A DNA stretch of 64,000 bases from Chloroflexus aggregans DSM 9485 (GTDB lineage Bacteria; Chloroflexota; Chloroflexia; Chloroflexales; Chloroflexaceae). Both the position numbers and the translations under genes were made by a program. Location: NCBI RefSeq assembly GCF_000021945.1, contig NC_011831.1, forward strand, positions 2,679,353 through 2,743,352, given 5' to 3'. This document shows, one piece after another, positions 3,239 to 64,000 of the stretch. Position 1 is the first letter of the stretch. Each line of letters opens with the position of its first letter. The notes beneath the pieces are model-generated. The model made no database searches, had not been told where the DNA came from, and worked only from the letters and a program-made list of their open reading frames with translations.

Positions 3239-4687
3239 TTAGGCTGTACGCGAGCCATCAGGACCGGAACGAGTGCGTGGTAGCGAGAAGAAAAAGATGC
3301 TACCTTTGCCCACTTCACTCTCGAGCCACATCCGCCCACCATGCAACTCGATCAGCCAGCGGCAGATCGAGAGACCTAGACCGGTACCGGCGTGATGACG
3401 AGTATCGGCATTTTCTACCTGCTCGAATTGCTGAAAGATCCGTTCTTGATCGGCCGGTGCAATCCCGATGCCGGTATCGCGTACCCAAAGCACCACCTGG
3501 TCGGTCTCGGCGCGTGCTCCAACGGCAATCTCACCCATATGGGTAAACTTGCACGCATTCGAGACCAGGTTGAGGAGCACCTGCCGGATACGTACCTCAT
3601 CGGCCAAGACGGTTGGTAATGAGTCATGATACTCACGCCGCAACTGGATCGGCCGGTCGCCGATTAACGCTTGCGCCGTGCGGATGGTTTCATCAAGTAA
3701 CGGTGGCAAGGCGAGATTCGTGCGATTAAGCTCGAGTTTGCCGGCTTCTATCTTCGCCAGATCGAGAATATCGTTGATCAACCCCAACAAATGCTGACCA
3801 CTGCGTCGGATTTCGGCAATATCTTGCAAGACTTGCTCGTCAATTTTGACATCACCGTACATTTCAGGGTGTTCGATCATTGCCGTACTGAAGCCGATGA
3901 TAATATTGAGTGGTGTCCGCAGTTCGTGCGACATCGTCGCCATAAAGTTCGATTTTGAGCGGTAGGCTGCTTCAGCAGCGGCGCGTGCCTCTTCCAACTC
4001 AAGCGTGGTGCGGTACAGTTGCTCGTTGAGCAAATCCCATTCGAGCAAAGCGCGCTCAAGCGTGGCCTGCGTCTCGCGCAGTAACTGCTCACGCCGTTCA
4101 GATTTTTGCGCAGTATCAATTGCCCAATTGATGGTGCCACGTACCACATACGCTGCGGCCCAACTCAGCGTTGCAGCGCTGAGCAACAGGATCACGAGAA
4201 AGAGAATTTTACCGATCGCGGAAAACCATGTTGGGCGTGGTTGGCCGATGACATCAGCAGCCAGGAGCAAGATGATGTAGAGCAGAATAGCCGCTTGCGT
4301 CGCTTGATAGGGTGCGCGCGACGAGACCATAATCCCGGCAGCAAATACCCCTAGTACCGATAGATAGACGAAGTTGTTGTCGGTGAAGCCAAAGGCCGTG
4401 CAACTCAGTATCGGTAAGAGGGTCGTTGCTGTAACAATCGTGATACTAGACCACTGCAATTGACCCTGTCGCCGTAGCCGGTCACTGGTTGCAGTCACCA
4501 GGATGAGCAACAGAATGATCGCATATGCCCAGCCATTACCGTCCCAGCGGTTCAGCAACAGAATACCGAGTGCTGCACCGGCCAACGTCGCCAACAAAAC
4601 GAGCATTGGTGGCAAAAGATCGGCGACAAGACTTTCATCAGGCGTTGCGACGGCGGTGCGGGCGGGAACGATGTTGCGCGCAACCAT
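3239..4687 (-). CDS. membrane histidine kinase
   Basis: 482 aa. Residues ~22-185 contain about five or six hydrophobic segments forming a membrane sensor region without a large extracellular loop. A coiled-coil linker (~195-245) follows, then the HisKA dimerisation box with His254 in ATMSHELRTPLN, and a complete HATPase domain: N box NLVSNACKF, G1 DTGIGI, G2 GTGLGLSI. Such kinases phosphorylate a partner response regulator; the one directly downstream is the obvious candidate. The signal is unknown. The C-terminus is short after the G2 box, with no receiver or HPt domain. Confidence 0.92.
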   Translation of the reverse strand: MVARNIVPARTAVATPDESLVADLLPPMLVLLATLAGAALGILLLNRWDGNGWAYAIILLLILVTATSDRLRRQGQLQWSSITIVTATTLLPILSCTAFGFTDNNFVYLSVLGVFAAGIMVSSRAPYQATQAAILLYIILLLAADVIGQPRPTWFSAIGKILFLVILLLSAATLSWAAAYVVRGTINWAIDTAQKSERREQLLRETQATLERALLEWDLLNEQLYRTTLELEEARAAAEAAYRSKSNFMATMSHELRTPLNIIIGFSTAMIEHPEMYGDVKIDEQVLQDIAEIRRSGQHLLGLINDILDLAKIEAGKLELNRTNLALPPLLDETIRTAQALIGDRPIQLRREYHDSLPTVLADEVRIRQVLLNLVSNACKFTHMGEIAVGARAETDQVVLWVRDTGIGIAPADQERIFQQFEQVENADTRHHAGTGLGLSICRWLIELHGGRMWLESEVGKGSIFFFSLPRTRSGPDGSRTA

Positions 4688-54879: not shown

Positions 54880-55545
54880 ATGGAGTATGAACTGACTAAA
54901 CATCGCACCCTTAGTCATCTCGATCAGTACATTTTGCTCTACTGGCTCATCTCGTCGGTTATTGGCATCCCACTCCTCGCTGATTGGCTCCGTAGTTGGA
55001 ATGTGCCGGTTACACTCGGCAATCCTCTGTTTGTCGCCTTTCTGCTCATCAGTTTCGCGTTCAGTCAGGTGTTATACGTTATGGTCGCCCGTCACGATGG
55101 CCGTCCATTTTTGGTAGGGCCGACGGTGATCTTTAGTATTGGTAATGGTGTGATCGAGACCTTTGCATTTGCGACCGTCTATCGGATTGGGGCGTGGATC
55201 GGCGATGGGCTGGCAGCGCACTTTTGGCCAGGTCTGGTTGGTGCACTCGGTTTTGCGGTTGGATTTACCGCGTTTGTGATTTATGGCGGTGTTATCCACG
55301 GAATGTTTTGGTTGCAACAACTCCCACCCCATCTTGATGATACGCCACGGTCAATGCAGATACGCAAACTGCGACCTCTTGCCGAGATGGCACTTGTGTT
55401 GGGCTGGAGCCTCTGTTTGTATTTGTATCAGGATATTTGGACGGTCATTTTTATCCACATTTTGGTCGATCTTGGTTTGATGTTGCGGGTACGACCGCCG
55501 GTCTTTCTCGGTGCAAGCCGACGCTATGATCAGGCGCTTGATTAG
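54880..55545 (+). CDS. membrane protein, function unknown
   Basis: 221 aa with five or six hydrophobic segments (YWLISSVIGIPLLADWL, PLFVAFLLISFAFSQVLYV, ALGFAVGFTAFVIYGGVIHGMF, ALVLGWSLCLYLYQDIWTVIF). RMQIRKLRPLAEMALV-like basic loop at ~165. The ATG follows an AT-rich leader with TGGAG. No family recognised; the spacing of charged residues resembles small CPBP-like or sensor membrane proteins, but no motif supports that. Confidence 0.75.
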   Translation: MEYELTKHRTLSHLDQYILLYWLISSVIGIPLLADWLRSWNVPVTLGNPLFVAFLLISFAFSQVLYVMVARHDGRPFLVGPTVIFSIGNGVIETFAFATVYRIGAWIGDGLAAHFWPGLVGALGFAVGFTAFVIYGGVIHGMFWLQQLPPHLDDTPRSMQIRKLRPLAEMALVLGWSLCLYLYQDIWTVIFIHILVDLGLMLRVRPPVFLGASRRYDQALD

Positions 55546-56896
55546 AACCTCTTGCAAAATAGAGGGTCCTGACTAACGGCCAAAAGCGTGATACGCATCA
55601 GTTACCGTTCAGTGCGCACCACGAGGCATCGACGACTGTTCGGCCAAGTGAACGAGCCGCCACCGTCCCACGGTGATTGGTATCGTGCCCCTCCCGGATC
55701 GGCCGGCCGTGTGGGATGCAAACGCGGACAACGGTCATCCATACCGATCGTGACCAGGATGTCACGCCAACGCATCACCGCCAGCATTGTCTGGCGAGCA
55801 TACACCGGCTCAATTTCCACCATCGTAGGACGGAATGTGGAGGTAGCCGCGTGGATCAGCACCCGAAACGATGCAAGCGGTGTCGTGTGTCTGCATACGT
55901 CTGGACACGCGAGTTCTCCCGCTGAGAGCCCGCTATGCATGTCGGAGACAAGCGAGGTGAGTGACGCGGCGTGGGCCTTCGTCGCTTCGACCTGCATAAC
56001 CGACGACGCTCCGTAGCGCGCCCACGCGCTTTGGATGCCACTGACTGCGCGTTTGCAGCGATCCACAGACCGGTCACGAGCCGGAAGCACGGCGTGCCAC
56101 GTTCAGGATGTGGCTGGAGCGGGATATGGGTGGACGAGGGCGAGAGGAAAAGAGACGGGGAACGCACGGTGGAGGGGCGAGACATGCCACGCCCCACATA
56201 GCATGCCACGCCCCCACATGATACGGAATCATTCCTCGTTGGAACGGGGGGGATGCGGTCGCGGTTAGACCGGGTAGCGCTGACGGTGATGAGGAGATGC
56301 GAACCGTCGCGGTCCTGGATGCGTCGGTGCAGGGCTGCCCAGCCTCTCCATGGTACGGCATGTCGGCCCGACGATACGGTGGTTGCGATCCCAATGCGTA
56401 AGCACAGGGTTTCCCAACGGCGCAGGTCACTGTCGTCTAGGGGGTGTTGTCACGGTGGACGAGGATGTGCTCTCCCGCATCGTGCCTGCGGGAGGGCTGG
56501 ACGTTGGTGCGGTGCTCCGTGCGGCGGGTGTATCCATCGCCGAGGGTGATGCCGAGACCTCCTGGGAGCGGACGAGGCGTGCGGCAAGGGCTTGGGTGAA
56601 GGGAGCGGCAGCACCCTGCGTATTGGGAGCGACGAAGGGGAGGGAGGCCTGCTCGGTGCGGATGGAGGAGCCGCGCAGGCGGATGGCCTTGCGGTGGCGG
56701 TCGGCGCGTTGCTTGTCTGACAAGATTGCGCTCCCCTGGCAATGGTTCGTACCATGTTATAATAGCTTTACCAGCACGTCGGCGGTTGAAGATGACGCTC
56801 AGGAGAGCTAAACGAGTCACGCACGATACGACCGAGACTCGAGATAATCACACGTCGGCCGGCAATGGTACGTAGCATGCGGGGTATCATGAGGCG
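55546..56896. other. GC-rich stretch without a convincing gene
   Basis: About 1.35 kb. Long frames exist on both strands but conflict with each other and have odd composition (Arg, Ser, Thr, Pro rich), so they look accidental. The best minus-strand candidates are at 55602-56090 and at 56427-56723. Near 56180-56230 short CATGCCACGCCCC-type repeats occur. A minus-strand fragment reading MIPRMLRTIAGRRVIISSLG ends at ~56775 and may be a remnant cut off by the cassette region. TATAAT at 56758-56763 may be a promoter element. Confidence 0.5.
56427..56723 (-). CDS. possible small protein, Arg/Ser/Thr-rich
   Basis: 98 aa from a TTG at 56723 with GGGGAG seven bases upstream. Begins MSDKQRADRHRKAIRLRGSS and ends in a Ser/Thr/Pro-rich tail. 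No known motif. The RBS is good but the composition and the competing frame on the other strand make it doubtful. Confidence 0.3.
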   Translation of the reverse strand: MSDKQRADRHRKAIRLRGSSIRTEQASLPFVAPNTQGAAAPFTQALAARLVRSQEVSASPSAMDTPAARSTAPTSSPPAGTMRESTSSSTVTTPPRRQ

Positions 56897-57895
56897 ATGA
56901 AACGTTCTCGTTCTGCGATCAAAGAACCATCTGCTGAATACGCGCGAAATAAAGAGATTCCAACTTTTTTTGGACAACAAATGCTCAAGGGGACTATGTT
57001 TGATAGTAATGAATCTCAAATAGACCCTAACACGCCCACGTTGTTCTATTCCCATCCTCACGGAGAAATATGGGTTGGTGATGCTATCGCTTGGCTTCGC
57101 TCTCTGGAAACCGAATCGGTTGATATGATTTTTGCGGACCCACCCTATAACATCAAGAAGGCGGAATGGGATACGTTTGAATCTCAAGAAGAGTATGTTG
57201 AATGGTCATTGTTGTGGATACGGGAAGCAGCGAGAGTACTAAAGCCTAGTGGTACTCTGTATATTTGTGGATTTTCTGAAATAATTGCCGACTTAAAATT
57301 GCCAGCCTCTCGGTTGTTCAAGGGATGTCGCTGGCTCATCTGGCACTATAAGAACAAAGCCAATCTTGGTTCGGATTGGGGGCGTTCCCATGAAAGCATT
57401 CTTCACTTCAGGAAGAGCAAGAATTTTACTTTCAACATTGATGATGTACGCATTCCTTATGGCAACCATACCCTCAAGTATCCTGAGCATCCACAAGCTG
57501 AGACCAGTCAATATGGAAAAGGCAATGGAAGAAAAAACACGATATGGCAACCACACCCACGTGGCGCCAAGCCCAGGGACGTTATCGAAATACCTACGAC
57601 GTGTAATGGAATGCACGAAAAAACACCTCACCCAACGCAGAAACCAGAAGAACTTTTGCGCAAGTTGGTCCTAGCCTCGTCGAATGTTGGAGATTTGATT
57701 GTAGATCCGTTTCTTGGCTCTGGAACTACCGCTGTTGTTGCTGAACAGCTTCGACGCAATTGGAAAGGTTGTGATATTTCTCTAGAATATTGCCGATGGG
57801 CTGTCAGGCGTATTGAGTTAGTGGAAGATTGGCCAATAGAGAAGTGGATTCAATATGATTTCGAAAATGCCGAGAGAAGGAAATCTATTCGATGA
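56897..57895 (+). CDS. type II DNA methyltransferase (DPPY type)
   Basis: 332 aa. Catalytic motif IV is DPPYN (residues 81-85, in MIFADPPYNIKKAEW) and comes before the SAM motif DPFLGSGTTAVVAEQL (~270), the order of beta-class amino-methyltransferases; a DPPY motif favours N6-adenine. Preceding WVGDAIAWLRSLETESVDM is typical. Its stop overlaps the nuclease start as ATGA. Protects the host from the linked nuclease. Visibly AT-richer than the host genes; first unit of the cassette-like region. Confidence 0.93.
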   Translation: MKRSRSAIKEPSAEYARNKEIPTFFGQQMLKGTMFDSNESQIDPNTPTLFYSHPHGEIWVGDAIAWLRSLETESVDMIFADPPYNIKKAEWDTFESQEEYVEWSLLWIREAARVLKPSGTLYICGFSEIIADLKLPASRLFKGCRWLIWHYKNKANLGSDWGRSHESILHFRKSKNFTFNIDDVRIPYGNHTLKYPEHPQAETSQYGKGNGRKNTIWQPHPRGAKPRDVIEIPTTCNGMHEKTPHPTQKPEELLRKLVLASSNVGDLIVDPFLGSGTTAVVAEQLRRNWKGCDISLEYCRWAVRRIELVEDWPIEKWIQYDFENAERRKSIR

Positions 57896-58848
57896 AAGAA
57901 ATCACATTGGTAGATTTACAAACCAGTGTTCGAGACACGAGCGCGTTTAATAGGCTGCAAGACTATTATCAGCTATGCAAAGCCTTCCTTGTGCTTATGC
58001 AGAAAATGCAGCCAACCCGCATTATCTCTCCAACGCATAACAATTATATGTTCTATCAGTATAACGAAGATTACGGTTATAGGATCACTCGACCTTTGAA
58101 TACTAATTTATTCATCGAGTCAGAAAACGAATTCAATACCGCCTTTCAACGATTTATGTCATTTCTCGCCGATCTCAAGCAACATCAGGATGCGATACTT
58201 AACCAAGAAGGTGCCAGAGGATATATCGAAACTGCCGAGATAAACCGAGTCGTTTACACAGTGCAGCAATCTATTGGCAGTATTGGGGACTCGTTTGAGA
58301 ATCCCAACCAGTCAAGAAAGCGCGTAGGACAGCTTTTTGAGGTTCTTGTCAAGCTTATCATCCAAGAAGTGGGATTAGAATGCGAACCTCGCACCATAAG
58401 CATTCCAATACCTGGTTATCCAGGTTATGAGATGTCTTACGAGCTAGATTTGGTTTTCTCTCGCAACAAAGCTATTGTTGCCGCCGAAACCAGATTCATC
58501 CATGAAACGGAAATCGTTGGCTCTGTAAAAACTACAAGCAAAGATCGAATTGACAAAGTTTTTCTTGACAAGTATTTGTTGACCAAATTGCTAGGAAGAG
58601 AAGTTCCTGTTATTGCTGTCTTTCTGCACGATGTTCAAAGAGCGAAAGCTGGCAATAGCATTTTTGGAATCAATTCAACTTTCAAAAGCAACCATTTTCT
58701 AGGGTATACCGTGGCGTTGAATAGGTTAGACGGTGTGTACTATGTTGACCCACGCCCAGAAATGCTCGCCAACGCTAGACTTCGAGAACAGATCAAAGAC
58801 TTTCAAACGTTTTTGGTCCAAGATTTGTGGCGATTGTCCGTCAGATAA
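57892..58848 (+). CDS. type II restriction endonuclease, unclassified
   Basis: 318 aa, coupled by ATGA to the methyltransferase. A PD-(D/E)xK-like core is suggested by KRVGQLFEVLVKLIIQE (residues ~143-159), ELDLVFSRNK with Asp186, and IVGSVKTTSKDRIDKVFLDK (~208-227), where SVKTT resembles the catalytic strand of several type II enzymes. The C-terminal FLGYTVALNRLDGVYYVDPR is unfamiliar. No known specificity can be read. Position and coupling make a restriction role likely. Confidence 0.8.
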   Translation: MKEITLVDLQTSVRDTSAFNRLQDYYQLCKAFLVLMQKMQPTRIISPTHNNYMFYQYNEDYGYRITRPLNTNLFIESENEFNTAFQRFMSFLADLKQHQDAILNQEGARGYIETAEINRVVYTVQQSIGSIGDSFENPNQSRKRVGQLFEVLVKLIIQEVGLECEPRTISIPIPGYPGYEMSYELDLVFSRNKAIVAAETRFIHETEIVGSVKTTSKDRIDKVFLDKYLLTKLLGREVPVIAVFLHDVQRAKAGNSIFGINSTFKSNHFLGYTVALNRLDGVYYVDPRPEMLANARLREQIKDFQTFLVQDLWRLSVR

Positions 58849-58872
58849 GAGTTTGTTTGTCAGAAATTGCCA

Positions 58873-58978
<106 letters not shown>

Positions 58979-59062
58979 ACGGCGGCTGTGTCGCCGGTTA
59001 TACCCCTTTCTTGAAAAGACAGATATCGTAACGACAGATGTCGTGTGGCAGCGTAATCGTTA

Positions 59063-60133
59063 ATGACAATGGTGATAGTTACCGAAAACTACCGACCAGC
59101 ATTTGAACATTATATGACGCAGGGCCAAATAGCACCTCTTCTCTTATTAGGGGATGCCCTTTTCGTGCTTAAGGAGCTGCCCGATTCTTCTGTTGACTGT
59201 GTGATGACCTCACCGCCGTATTGGGGAAAACGAGAATATGAGAATGGTGGGATTGGGCTTGAAAGAGATTACCGTGACTATGTGCGACACGTAGCAGAGA
59301 TCTTTCTTGAGCTTAAGCGTGTATTGAAATCTACAGGGTCATTCTGGCTCAATATTGGAGATAGCTATCACCGCAAGAACTTACTCGGAATTCCTTGGCG
59401 TGTTGCGTTCGAATTGACCGATCATCAAGGCTGGATTCTTCGGAATGCCGTTGTGTGGAATAAAGTAAAAAGTGGCATGGATAATACAACTGATAGGCTT
59501 GGTAATATGTACGAAATGGTTTTCCACTTCGTCAAGCAATCCAAAGGTTATTACTATAATGTAGATGCCATTCGCTCAACACCACGTGAAGCCAAAATCG
59601 TGCATGGTGCAGTCATTTCTGCAACAGGGGTATCGGGGGTGCGCTATCGACGCCAAATCGAACTGTCCACTGCCTTATCCGAACAAGAAAAAGCTGCTGC
59701 GTATGAAGCCCTTGATACGATGCTTGCAGAGGTTGCAGCGGGGCGTATTTCTGACTTTCGCATGATTATCCGCGGTCAGCAGCGCGCAACGCATTCAGAT
59801 AGTGAAATGGTATCAGGACGCGCAAAAGAATTGCGTGAAAAAGGATTCTATTTTTTACGGTATCATCCCAAGGGGTGCAAACCAAGCGATGTCTGGGATA
59901 TTCTTCCAGAAGATACTCAAGGAAGAAACGTACATTTTGCACCGTATCCTGTTGACCTTTGCCGAATACCAATCCTAGCTACATGCCCCCCAGAAGGAGT
60001 TGTTTTAGATCCTTTCTGTGGTACGGGCACTACCCTCTATGCTGCACTGAATCTCGGTCGCAAATCAGTAGGAATCGACATATCACGTAAGTATCTCGAA
60101 ATCGTACAAGAACGGTGTGCCACGTTCCTATGA
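59063..60133 (+). CDS. type II DNA methyltransferase (SPPY type, NotI-like system)
   Basis: 356 aa. Motif IV is TSPPYW (residues 49-54), typical of N4-cytosine methyltransferases, and the SAM motif DPFCGTGTTLYAAL comes near the C-terminus, again beta-class order. A long insertion (~185-265, variable target-recognition region) lies between WNKVKSGMDNTTDRLGNMYE and FYFLRYHPKGCKPSDVWDI. Stop overlaps the nuclease start (ATGA 60130-60133). Modifies the site cut by the neighbouring NotI-like enzyme. Confidence 0.93.
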   Translation: MTMVIVTENYRPAFEHYMTQGQIAPLLLLGDALFVLKELPDSSVDCVMTSPPYWGKREYENGGIGLERDYRDYVRHVAEIFLELKRVLKSTGSFWLNIGDSYHRKNLLGIPWRVAFELTDHQGWILRNAVVWNKVKSGMDNTTDRLGNMYEMVFHFVKQSKGYYYNVDAIRSTPREAKIVHGAVISATGVSGVRYRRQIELSTALSEQEKAAAYEALDTMLAEVAAGRISDFRMIIRGQQRATHSDSEMVSGRAKELREKGFYFLRYHPKGCKPSDVWDILPEDTQGRNVHFAPYPVDLCRIPILATCPPEGVVLDPFCGTGTTLYAALNLGRKSVGIDISRKYLEIVQERCATFL

Positions 60134-60981
60134 GCAAGATTGCCGAACTCTTTGGCATATCAACTGAGGAAAAAGAAAAAAACTGGGGTCGGATTGTTCG
60201 AGAACAGCTCTGTCCTTTTTTAGGAAAGAAATGCTATAAAGTGAGAAAGAGCGACCCAAACACTTCAATTGGAACATGTACAGTCCTCTATGGGAAAGCG
60301 GCTGAGCCTATTGTTATATGTCCGACCCGTCTGACTGAGCGGCGACAGATTTTTATAGACTGTTTTCATCTTCTGACGACACATCAACCTGGTAACGAAT
60401 TACACATTGTCTCGGAAGTCTCTATTCCAGGTGGCAGCGTTGATTATTTTCTCGTTTCTGTTAGGGATGGAAAAGTTAAAGACTTCGTTGGTATTGAAAT
60501 TCAGACGCTCGACACAACCGGTACAGTATGGCCAGAGCGTCAAAGGTTTCTGAGCGAGATAGGGATTCCGCGAGCAGACGATGCCGAAAACTCTGATAAA
60601 CCATATGGCATGAATTGGAAAATGACGGCAAAGACCATTTTGGTTCAGATGCATCACAAAATTGATACATTTGAGCACGTCAACAAAAAACTTGTGTTGA
60701 TCGTGCAAGATAGGCTTCTCGAATATATGGCTAAAGAGTTTAGCTTTACACATCTCAAGAATCCAGCCGTGCTTGGTGATTCGATGCATTTTCATTCCTA
60801 TCGTATTATCAAGCAACCTGATGGATCGTTCAGATTAGCCATACATTCGCGGCTAAGTACAGATGCGGGTGGAATAGCTACTTGTCTTGGGTTACAAGCT
60901 GAAGCGAGAGTGGAACTCGATCAAATCTTGGAAGCTTTGCAAACTAAAATTTCTCCCGCTACTCGTTTTGTGCCAGTATGA
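60130..60981 (+). CDS. NotI-family restriction endonuclease
   Basis: 283 aa from the ATG at 60130. Matches the NotI family: FGIST near the start, CPFLGKKCYKVRK and GTCTVLYG, then ICPTRLTERRQIF. The four cysteines (28, 35, 50, 64) correspond to the iron-binding Cys4 motif of NotI. The catalytic strand pattern is VSEVSIPGGSVDYFLV (Glu96, Asp105) followed by VGIEIQTLDTTGT (Glu123, Gln125), a PD-(D/E)xQ-type site. NotI itself cuts GCGGCCGC; this enzyme is shorter and may differ in specificity. Confidence 0.88.
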   Translation: MSKIAELFGISTEEKEKNWGRIVREQLCPFLGKKCYKVRKSDPNTSIGTCTVLYGKAAEPIVICPTRLTERRQIFIDCFHLLTTHQPGNELHIVSEVSIPGGSVDYFLVSVRDGKVKDFVGIEIQTLDTTGTVWPERQRFLSEIGIPRADDAENSDKPYGMNWKMTAKTILVQMHHKIDTFEHVNKKLVLIVQDRLLEYMAKEFSFTHLKNPAVLGDSMHFHSYRIIKQPDGSFRLAIHSRLSTDAGGIATCLGLQAEARVELDQILEALQTKISPATRFVPV

Positions 60982-60996
60982 AAAATTGAGACGAGG

Positions 60997-61060
60997 GCAT
61001 CACCTGCGCTTGCACCTGACGTTGCTCCGCGGCGCTCCGCGACGCAGGTGATGCGCAGGC
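60997..61060 (+). repeat. attC-like palindromic element 2
   Basis: GCATCACCTGCG (60997-61008) pairs exactly with CGCAGGTGATGC (61043-61054) around a GC-rich loop. The stretch 61044-61060 is identical to 58924-58940 of element 1, and CACCTGACG recurs at 61013-61021. The flanking core triplets are degenerate. It lies between a nuclease stop and the next methyltransferase. Confidence 0.55.
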
Positions 61061-61148
61061 TGTTCGCCCGCCTGATGTGGTTGGCTCCACTGCTCCAGTG
61101 GGGGTAGCATTGAGATGTGTTCCACATCTGCATGACAGGACAGGACCT

Positions 61149-62138
61149 ATGCGTGATGTACCGCTGTTTCGTTCTATCAAGCCTATTGAGACCGGATTCA
61201 AACCAGACGCCGAGATCGTTCTCTTTTCTGGCGATGTGAGTGAATTGCTTACACAGGTTCCTGATAATTCAGTTGCCCTGATTGTGACCTCTCCGCCTTA
61301 CAATTTGGGCAAAGAGTACGAAGATCGTGTTTCGATTGAACAGTACCTGAAGACACAGGCGCAAGTTATTGCTCAACTTCATCGTGTTCTACGAGAAGAT
61401 GGCAGCATTTGCTGGCAAGTAGGCAACTTTGTTGAGAATGGAGAAGTCTATCCGCTTGATGTTCTTTATTACCCAATTTTCAAAGAGTTGGGGATGAGAT
61501 TGCGCAATCGGATCATTTGGAAATTCGGGCACGGGTTACACGCATCTAGACGTTTTTCGGGGCGCTATGAAACTATCTTGTGGTTTACAAAATCCGATCG
61601 TTATGTGTTTAACCTTGACGCAGTTCGTGTACCGGCCAAATATCCTGGTAAGCGTCACTTCAAGGGACCAAATAAGGGGAAACCCTCAGGCAATCCTCTT
61701 GGAAAAAATCCCTCTGACGTGTGGGAAATCCTGGTTCAGGATTGGGAAGAATTGGTATGGGATATTCCCAATGTAAAATCGAATCACCCCGAAAAAACAG
61801 TCCACCCCTGCCAGTTTCCGATCGAACTTGTTGAGCGGTGTGTCCTTGCACTCACGAATGAAGGTGATTGGGTCTTTGACCCTTATATGGGTGTTGGTTC
61901 AGCTCTAATTGCAGCTTTGATGCACGATAGACGCGCAATGGGTTGCGAAAAAGAAGCGGCTTATGTGGAAATAGCTCGCCAACGCATTGTCGATTATTTC
62001 AACGGCACCCTTCGCTACCGCCCAATGGGAAAACCAGTTTACCAACCGACAGGCAAAGAGAAGGTATCCCAGATTCCTGAAGAATGGAAAGAGCCTTCCC
62101 AAGTGCGGCTTTTGGAAGAACAAGGTGAATACGAATGA
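61149..62138 (+). CDS. type II DNA methyltransferase (SPPY type, BglII-like system)
   Basis: 329 aa from the ATG at 61149; the frame is open further 5' through the element, which is not coding. Motif IV is TSPPYN (IVTSPPYNLGKEYEDRV), SAM motif DPYMGVGSALIAAL near residue 255, with FGHGLHASRRFSGRYETILWFTKSD between them. N4-cytosine type, as known for BglII-group enzymes. Its stop overlaps the nuclease start by ATGA (62135-62138). Confidence 0.92.
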   Translation: MRDVPLFRSIKPIETGFKPDAEIVLFSGDVSELLTQVPDNSVALIVTSPPYNLGKEYEDRVSIEQYLKTQAQVIAQLHRVLREDGSICWQVGNFVENGEVYPLDVLYYPIFKELGMRLRNRIIWKFGHGLHASRRFSGRYETILWFTKSDRYVFNLDAVRVPAKYPGKRHFKGPNKGKPSGNPLGKNPSDVWEILVQDWEELVWDIPNVKSNHPEKTVHPCQFPIELVERCVLALTNEGDWVFDPYMGVGSALIAALMHDRRAMGCEKEAAYVEIARQRIVDYFNGTLRYRPMGKPVYQPTGKEKVSQIPEEWKEPSQVRLLEEQGEYE

Positions 62139-62704
62139 TCATTGCGGTAATTTACTCTTTCAATCGTGGTGAGGGGATTATCCGCTCCCAATACTCGGCG
62201 GAACTCGGAGAAGTAGAGCAAGTTATTGCTGCCGTCGACAGCACACAATGCAAAACGAAAACCAGCCGAGAAAAGACAATGCCCGGTAGAATGCTCTATA
62301 GCCCGCGAGCTTTGAACAGGGCTTTTACGAAAGAGTTTGGATCGCGTGGCTGGGAGAAATATAAGGTGCAATGCGATTACTCAACCGAGTATTATGTACC
62401 TGGCTATGTTCCCAGCAGCCCATCAAAGGGAGCTTTTCGCGAGATAGATTTTGTCAAGAACCGAGTAGGTATTGAAGTTCAATTTGGCAAATATGCTTTT
62501 ATGGTCTACAACGTCTGCGCAAAAATGACCATTTTCCACAAGTTGGGAGTGATAGACGTAGGCATTGAGATTGTGCCAATTAAGCTCTTCGCTGAAGAGA
62601 TGTCTACAGGTGTTTCATATTTTGAACAGTTTGTTTGGGATTTAGAGCATCGGGGCATTGCGGATATTGATATTCCTGTACTCGTTCTGGGAGTAACGAC
62701 GTGA
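62135..62704 (+). CDS. BglII/BstYI-family restriction endonuclease
   Basis: 189 aa. Core REIDFVKNRVGIEVQFGKYAF carries Asp105, Glu114 and Gln116, the PD-ExQ catalytic signature of BglII-type enzymes, followed by HKLGVIDVGIEIVPIKLF, also characteristic. Slightly shorter than BglII. These enzymes recognise AGATCT or RGATCY sites; the exact site here is unknown. Third R-M pair of the region. Confidence 0.88.
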   Translation: MIIAVIYSFNRGEGIIRSQYSAELGEVEQVIAAVDSTQCKTKTSREKTMPGRMLYSPRALNRAFTKEFGSRGWEKYKVQCDYSTEYYVPGYVPSSPSKGAFREIDFVKNRVGIEVQFGKYAFMVYNVCAKMTIFHKLGVIDVGIEIVPIKLFAEEMSTGVSYFEQFVWDLEHRGIADIDIPVLVLGVTT

Positions 62705-62720
62705 AAGATAATGTCAGACT

Positions 62721-62783
62721 CACACGCACTTCACCTGACGCCACGTCGTTGGGTCGCTTGTTTCCTCCTTGTGGGGACGTGTG
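62721..62783 (+). repeat. attC-like element 3 (degenerate)
   Basis: CACACG (62721-62726) pairs with CGTGTG (62778-62783) across ~50 bases, and CACCTGACG (62732-62740) repeats the block of elements 1 and 2. It lies 17 bases after the nuclease stop. Only the left part is close to the other copies, so it may be decayed. Confidence 0.4.
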
Positions 62784-62818
62784 TTTTGGCCTCAAATCCT
62801 ACTGAAAGGAGTTTCGCA

Positions 62819-63463
62819 ATGAAGGTCTTATTTCTCGGCTCAAGTCAGTCGCCCTTAGTCGAGTGGTTACAATCTGTGGGCGAAGAAGTCGTAGCTACTA
62901 TGGAACCGATTGATGTCGCATTTCTAGATGCATACTCACCTGACTTTATCGTGAGCTATGGGTACCGCCATATCATCAAGAAAGATGTTCTTCTCCGGTA
63001 CACAGGTAGAGCCATCAATCTTCATATTTCCTACCTCCCATGGAACAGGGGAGCAGACCCTAATTTTTGGAGTTTTGTCGAAGACACTCCAAAAGGGGTA
63101 ACGATTCATTATCTGAATGAAGGGGTTGACACTGGTGACATCATTGTTCAAAAACGAGTTACGTTTTCCGAGAGCGACACGTTGAGAACAAGTTACGACA
63201 AACTTCAAGAAGAAATACAAGCACTCTTCAAAGACAACTGGGCTAGTATTCGGACGGGGGAATGCCATCGTAAAAGACAACAAGGCAAGGGAGCATTCTA
63301 TAGGCTCAAAGATAAGGAAAGACTTTCTCACCTTTTAACTCGCGGATGGGATACACCGATTGCGGTTTTGGAAGAATATGCGGCTGAAACTCAAATGGTT
63401 ATGCAGTTTTGGGATACATATGACGCTGAAATCAACGAAATACGCAGGCAAGGTACGTCGTGA
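62819..63463 (+). CDS. formyltransferase (sugar or methionyl-tRNA type)
   Basis: 214 aa from the ATG at 62819 (AAAGGAG seven bases upstream). N10-formyl-THF transferase catalytic set is intact: Asn67 and His69 in AINLHISYLPWNRGADPNFWS and Asp104 in EGVDTGDII. Much shorter than methionyl-tRNA formyltransferase and without its C-terminal RNA-binding domain, so closer to UDP-4-amino-sugar formyltransferases of O-antigen biosynthesis. It stands alone in the cassette region without sugar genes, a typical situation for a cassette passenger. Confidence 0.88.
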   Translation: MKVLFLGSSQSPLVEWLQSVGEEVVATMEPIDVAFLDAYSPDFIVSYGYRHIIKKDVLLRYTGRAINLHISYLPWNRGADPNFWSFVEDTPKGVTIHYLNEGVDTGDIIVQKRVTFSESDTLRTSYDKLQEEIQALFKDNWASIRTGECHRKRQQGKGAFYRLKDKERLSHLLTRGWDTPIAVLEEYAAETQMVMQFWDTYDAEINEIRRQGTS

Positions 63464-63484
63464 GACATACATTCCGACGGTGCG

Positions 63485-63554
63485 GGCTAACCATGGGTTG
63501 CAGCCGATGTTACTCTACTATGCTCCGCAATGCGGCTGAACCCGACCGTTAGGC
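63485..63554 (+). mobile_element. attC-type recombination site (element 4)
   Basis: Left core GGCTAAC (63485-63491) and right core GTTAGGC (63548-63554, a perfect GTTRRRY) frame a stem: GGGTTGCAGCCG (63495-63506) pairs with CGGCTGAACCC (63533-63543) leaving one unpaired G at 63500. Spacers of 3 and 4 bases separate core and stem, and the loop is 26 bases. This is the layout of integron attC sites (R'', L'', extra-helical base, L', R'). It follows the formyltransferase by 21 bases, as attC follows its cassette gene. Confidence 0.75.
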
Positions 63555-63569
63555 CGCCAGATACGACAA

Positions 63570-64000
63570 GTGACAGCGCTGATCATTTTCTTTGGCGACA
63601 ATTTACCAGTTTTACAGAGTCTTTCTCACGATTCGGTAGCCCTAATCTGCATTGAACCTCCCTTCAATACGGACAAAATCCCGAGTCGAACCCGCTTGTC
63701 TACCGTCCGTAATGAACATGGCGACCGGATGGGGTTTCAAGGCAAGTGATATCAGACAATCAAGCTCAGCACGAAGGAATACGCTGACATCTTTGCTGAT
63801 TACCTTGCTTTTCTCGAACCGCAATGAGGTGAGGCTCGGCGAGTGCATAAGGCAAATGGCAGCCTTTTTGCTCACATCGACGAGAGGGCATGGTCAGGCC
63901 TTGGTTCCCGGTATGGCGGAACAGATATACCAAGCGCTCGGGGCAAGCGGGTACTGACCACCATGGGTACTACCGTCCAACTTGTGCCACCCGTGGTGCG
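63570..64000 (+). pseudogene. decayed DNA methyltransferase, truncated by window end
   Basis: One frame from a GTG at 63570 reads GDNLPVLQSLSHDSVALIC, then IEPPFNTDK (motif IV with Glu for Asp), TVRNEHGDRMGFQGK, and FADYLAFLEPQ, as in amino-methyltransferases of the DPPFNT group. Two TGA codons, 63747-63749 and 63825-63827, interrupt it in frame, at positions where relatives have Arg (CGA to TGA changes). The frame stays protein-like after them (EARRVHKANGSLFAHID) and runs to base 64000. Confidence 0.75.

Follow-up and report, generated by a model that had tools for sequence, protein, structure and literature searches.

An attC site, probably inert, closes a formyltransferase cassette in an orphan, decaying array of Chloroflexus aggregans

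The integron integrase IntI cuts the folded bottom strand of an attC site at the R' box and joins it to attI or to another attC, and attC sites range from 57 to 141 bp in length (PMC5371416). A cluster of at least two attC sites without an integron integrase is termed CALIN in the IntegronFinder definition (PMC9024848), and a spacing of up to 4 kb between its attC sites has been applied (PMC9668308). The Chloroflexi are listed in a 2021 integron review (PMC8618304), and integrases of this phylum have been on record since 2008 (PMC2426708). Integron integrases of family TIGR02249 were present in 19 of the 201 genomes that we sampled from the phylum; the earlier note's description of a phylum in which integrons are little described needs amending, as the phylum is not really unexplored. 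The present study concerns a window of 64,000 nucleotides from the Chloroflexus aggregans DSM 9485 genome, whose features are collected in Table 1. The stretch 63485-63554 is almost certainly a genuine attC site lying in an orphan, decaying array, the 800-bp cassette in front of it having probably arrived by integron recombination and the site being probably inert now. The attC reading of the earlier note is thus upheld, being supported by its sequence and structure, by its place behind a cassette gene, by the surrounding array and by homology that follows the outline of the cassette.

Table 1. Features of the window discussed in the text (positions counted from the first base of the window)
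Feature	Position	Strand	Evidence
N6/N4 DNA methyltransferase, type II	56897-57895	+	Pfam PF01555 179 bits; PADLOC MTase_II
Type II restriction enzyme, partner of 56897-57895 gene	57892-58848	+	PADLOC REase_II 208.7 bits
attC-like site, broken R' (...CCGTGATACGG), then inverted repeat	58872-58946	+	Covariance model 69.3 bits
N6/N4 DNA methyltransferase, NotI-type system	59063-60133	+	Pfam 159.6 bits
NotI-like restriction endonuclease	60115-60981	+	Pfam PF12183 30.5 bits, cut-off 22
attC-like site, altered R'' (GCATCAC) and R' (GTTCGCC)	60997-61068	+	Covariance model 47.6 bits
N6/N4 DNA methyltransferase, BglII-type system	61077-62138	+	Pfam 178.9 bits
BglII-like restriction endonuclease	62135-62704	+	Pfam PF09195 80.1 bits
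Internally deleted attC, left cassette boundary	62717-62754	+	Sequence and alignment to intact attC and L079
Gene cassette (TTGGGT ... G), 800 bp	62749-63548	+	L079 homology limits, base alignment of both ends
PseJ-like N-formyltransferase, cassette cargo	62819-63463	+	Pfam Formyl_trans_N 79.9 bits; PDB formyltransferase PseJ E 6e-61
attC site	63485-63554	+	Sequence, covariance score, DNA fold, homologous attC at matching place in L079
R'' GGCTAAC	63485-63491	+	Read from sequence; spacer CAT after
L''	63495-63506	+	GGGTT 63495-63499, extra G 63500, CAGCCG 63501-63506
Loop, 26 nt	63507-63532	+	Read from sequence
L' CGGCTG-AACCC	63533-63543	+	Read from sequence; spacer GACC after
R' GTTAGGC	63548-63554	+	Read from sequence
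Decayed DNA methyltransferase start, probable relic of next cassette	63570-63749	+	NCBIfam PRK11524 21.3 bits, far under cut-off; sequence reading
Genus-variable island, about 9.1 kb, part in window	55525-64000		Flank spacing in three relatives

On the forward strand the site reads GGCTAAC-CAT-GGGTT-G-CAGCCG-(26 nt)-CGGCTG-AACCC-GACC-GTTAGGC, and the anatomy given in the earlier note (both cores, the lone unpaired G, the 26-base loop and the 70 bases) is correct base for base. R'' ends in AAC, R' fits GTTRRRY, and the two boxes are complementary in 6 of 7 positions; the L stem of 11 bp is flawless except for the extra G, and the total of 70 bp falls inside the attC range. Counted as an exact sequence, the site is a single copy in the genome of 4,684,931 bases. 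DNA folding gave the expected hairpin with the extra base unpaired on the top strand and equally on the bottom strand, where the earlier note had wanted to see it extra-helical. The top strand folds better by 1.4 kcal/mol (-12.6 vs -11.2 kcal/mol); attC sites of sedentary integrons have on average the same sign of strand preference and those of mobile integrons the opposite one (PMC5371416). Counted from the end of AAC, the unpaired base is nucleotide 9 and nucleotide 16 is an A, an arrangement shared with most other sites of the genome. On the bottom strand the unpaired base is C here and G in many other sites, the base of the window site being common to 10 of 25 genome sites. Judged from its bases, the site itself has all the features needed for recombination.

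The heptamer GTTAGGC occurs 4 times in the window against 5.6 expected, which is unremarkable in itself, and because this core alone does no better than chance a covariance model (R1) was built. R1 was trained on six further attC-like sites from this genome; the site at 63485-63554 was left out of the training set, as was a candidate with a broken R'. A covariance score below threshold, which the earlier note had considered, was not what we obtained: this own-genome model scored the site at 42.2 bits (E 4.1e-8 for the window). It also detected the sites at 58872-58946 (E 6.9e-15) and 60997-61068 (E 1.8e-9), and its best non-attC match in the window reached 14.7 bits. No R1 match at E <= 0.05 was obtained in seven further stretches of this genome, each of 20 kb (140 kb in all), and an Rfam search of the window gave no match. 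As a positive control, R1 was run on the class 1 integron of plasmid R388. It recovered the two known attC sites, placed exactly where the dfrB2 and orfA cassettes end, and scored them at 33.6 and 22.3 bits, lower than the window site. Genome-wide there are at least 23 R1 matches in six clusters, a count from a fast first-pass search that overlooks 63485-63554 itself. In an alignment of 25 distinct sites, which was fitted to R1 and includes its training sites, standard pairs fill 88% of pair cells vs 29-37% in slid controls, and in 13 of the 20 pairs one site or more has both partners changed. When the genome of the window and its near relatives were taken together, attC-like sites were found in 11 of 21 genomes.

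The formyltransferase gene and the attC site are co-oriented, with the stop codon just 5' of R'', and the closest solved structure to the cargo protein is the pseudaminic-acid formyltransferase PseJ. The left boundary of the cassette is an attC that retains its R''/L''-like half, has lost the loop and L', and still carries an R' box, GTTGGGT, at 62748-62754; it was identified by eye and is not detected by the covariance model. Homology by blastn to contig JANDJJ010000020.1 (L079) covers 62735-63552 at 86% and ends there, and base alignment places its left start just before the R' box at 62748-62754 and its right end inside R' of the intact site. The formyltransferase of L079 has 88% amino-acid identity and is flanked by two attC. 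Since the homology ends at the cassette limits, the cassette 62749-63548 moved as a unit. The earlier note had also suggested a check of relatives for the same site. A homologous attC follows the same gene in L079, and the island that carries the window site is itself absent from three congeners. The attC after the homologous cassette (L079 4639-4696) has the L' AACCC of the window site together with an L'' GCGCAT that does not pair with it, so that it is a hybrid site. L079 is labelled a Nitrospira MAG, and it has repeats and attC-like sites in common with Chloroflexales. The label is doubtful and may be a binning error, and therefore no claim of transfer between phyla is made. The cultured Thiospirillum jenense DSM 216 (L084) has the same gene followed directly by an attC and then by three more, and in a Kiritimatiellae MAG (L092) the formyltransferase gene is likewise followed by an attC, though a weaker one. 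A plasmid search with the formyltransferase gave only distant relatives of less than 60% identity. In other bacteria (L080, L085, L088 and L091) the formyltransferase is followed by nonulosonic-acid biosynthesis-like genes, PseG- or PseI-like by eye, which fits a PseJ role.

The identity as attC given in the earlier note stands, with the amendment that the site is not isolated: the orphan array around it holds three further attC, partly damaged. The window array consists of three full-length attC sites, of which 63485-63554 is the last, and the internally deleted one, all genes and sites being on the forward strand. The full-length sites begin at 58872, 60997 and 63485, at spacings of about 2.1 and 2.4 kb. 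Both core boxes are retained at 63485-63554, and the neighbouring sites are damaged, two of them in R' and the third lacking loop and L'. Between 56897 and 62704 stand three consecutive type II restriction-modification pairs (unclassified, NotI-like and BglII-like), each ending in an attC-like site or remnant. At 58940-58980 a 12-base inverted repeat, CCGTGATACGGA ... TCCGTATCACGG, occupies the expected R' position of the first attC, as if a small element had been inserted there. The decayed methyltransferase start lies 15 bases 3' of R' and is probably a relic of the next cassette. The flanks of this region are only 121-258 bases apart in three congeneric genomes, which have the empty site, and the array therefore belongs to an island of about 9.1 kb in this genome, whose right end lies about 650 bases past the window end. 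The site is thus intergenic and in an island absent from relatives, not inside a conserved gene as the earlier note had allowed for.

Integrases were called by TIGR02249 with its cut-off; this model was chosen over NF011946 because the latter is loose and matches all 14 control genomes. Near 0.56 Mb and near 3.97 Mb the genome carries two copies each of the integron-integrase family. All four are frameshifted; one of them, though a fragment, still scores above the TIGR02249 cut-off. There is no intI near the window, the array being more than 1 Mb from the IntI copies of the genome, and the locus is no complete functional integron, which would have an intact intI and attI beside the array. With no integrase nearby and every copy frameshifted, the array is an orphan one (CALIN) and is probably inert. 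The two IntI pairs, at 8497-10480 of L013 and at 3704-4592 and 8149-9021 of L014, have attC-like sites around them on the opposite strand.

It can be asked whether the attC is still in use. Cassettes would then enter and leave the array through an IntI active in this lineage, encoded either by the copy with the least damage or on a mobile element. Intact R'' and R' boxes agree with this, as do the copy at 3965500-3966434, apparently broken by one frameshift only, and the intact IntI found in relatives of other genera. Yet none of the four copies in the genome has escaped frameshifting, the neighbouring sites are damaged as described and the next gene has decayed, and we consider continued use unlikely. 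Slightly more doubtful still is the extended proposal that a trans-acting integrase keeps the orphan array of Chloroflexus exchanging cassettes for defence and surface sugars; if true, the array of this thermophilic phototroph would be a live store, shared between lineages, of cassettes with restriction-modification and formyltransferase genes. With only pseudogenes for IntI in the genome and damage in the adjoining sites, the attC is probably inert in this strain.

Much less probable is a reading of the hairpin behind the formyltransferase gene as a transcription terminator or REP-like structure and not as a recombination site. The position of the hairpin directly 3' of the stop codon would suit such a role, but no T-run follows it, the two core boxes of an integron site are present together with the extra base typical of attC, and the homology in L079 breaks at R'. 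As a candidate in its own right, a terminator at 63485-63554 was rejected, the terminator scan being negative there. The idea that chance has put an imperfect palindrome between two frequent heptamers, to which the unexceptional frequency of GTTAGGC and the modest z-scores of plain folding (-2.35 top, -1.66 bottom) would be congenial, can practically be dismissed given the covariance E value, with nothing comparable in the 140 kb elsewhere in the genome, the placement after a cassette gene and the homologous site in L079.

For the favoured attC in a decaying orphan array, the following course may be proposed. Folded as single-stranded DNA, by analogy from the bottom strand, the site would be the substrate of IntI, which would cut R' between G63548 and T63549 and thereby excise or insert the cassette. 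The PseJ-like formyltransferase cassette would have come in as a unit through integron recombination and would now sit in a CALIN beside type II restriction-modification cassettes. Sequence, structure, limits of homology, array and broken integrases are shown directly, whereas we infer that recombination took place, which strand it used and that the site is inactive at present. The site has probably been without function in this strain from the loss of the integrases onward, and an integrase from outside could still use it.

The kind of attC is known and integrons are already on record in the phylum, so the novelty is modest, and the locus is a good new example. It provides a clear integron relic in a single-contig Chloroflexus genome, with dead integrases, scattered arrays, cassettes rich in restriction-modification genes with one surface-sugar formyltransferase, and one cassette that can be traced base by base to another contig. 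The record of integrons outside the Proteobacteria is thereby extended, and the general view of integrons is unchanged. The sites may also serve as ready test substrates for how far IntI1 and the Chloroflexota integrases accept each other's attC.

The dfrB2 and orfA cassettes of R388 end in attC sites, also called 59-base elements, and the window site is like these in the order R''/L''/L'/R', the extra base in L'', the GTTRRRY boundary and detection by R1. The loop and stem sequences differ, the extra base of the window site being C on the bottom strand, and the R388 sites stand behind an intact intI1, whereas the window array has no intact integrase. The array resembles a CALIN in its three full-length attC-like sites on one strand, less than 4 kb apart and with no integrase nearby; unlike the plain definition, it is partly degenerate, with two damaged R' boxes and one internally deleted site. 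With the integrons on record for the Chloroflexota (PMC2426708, PMC8618304) the comparison rests on the TIGR02249 IntI in 19 of the 201 sampled genomes and on the attC-like sites in 11 of 21 genomes; the genome of the window differs in having its integrases as pseudogenes, more than 1 Mb away from the array.
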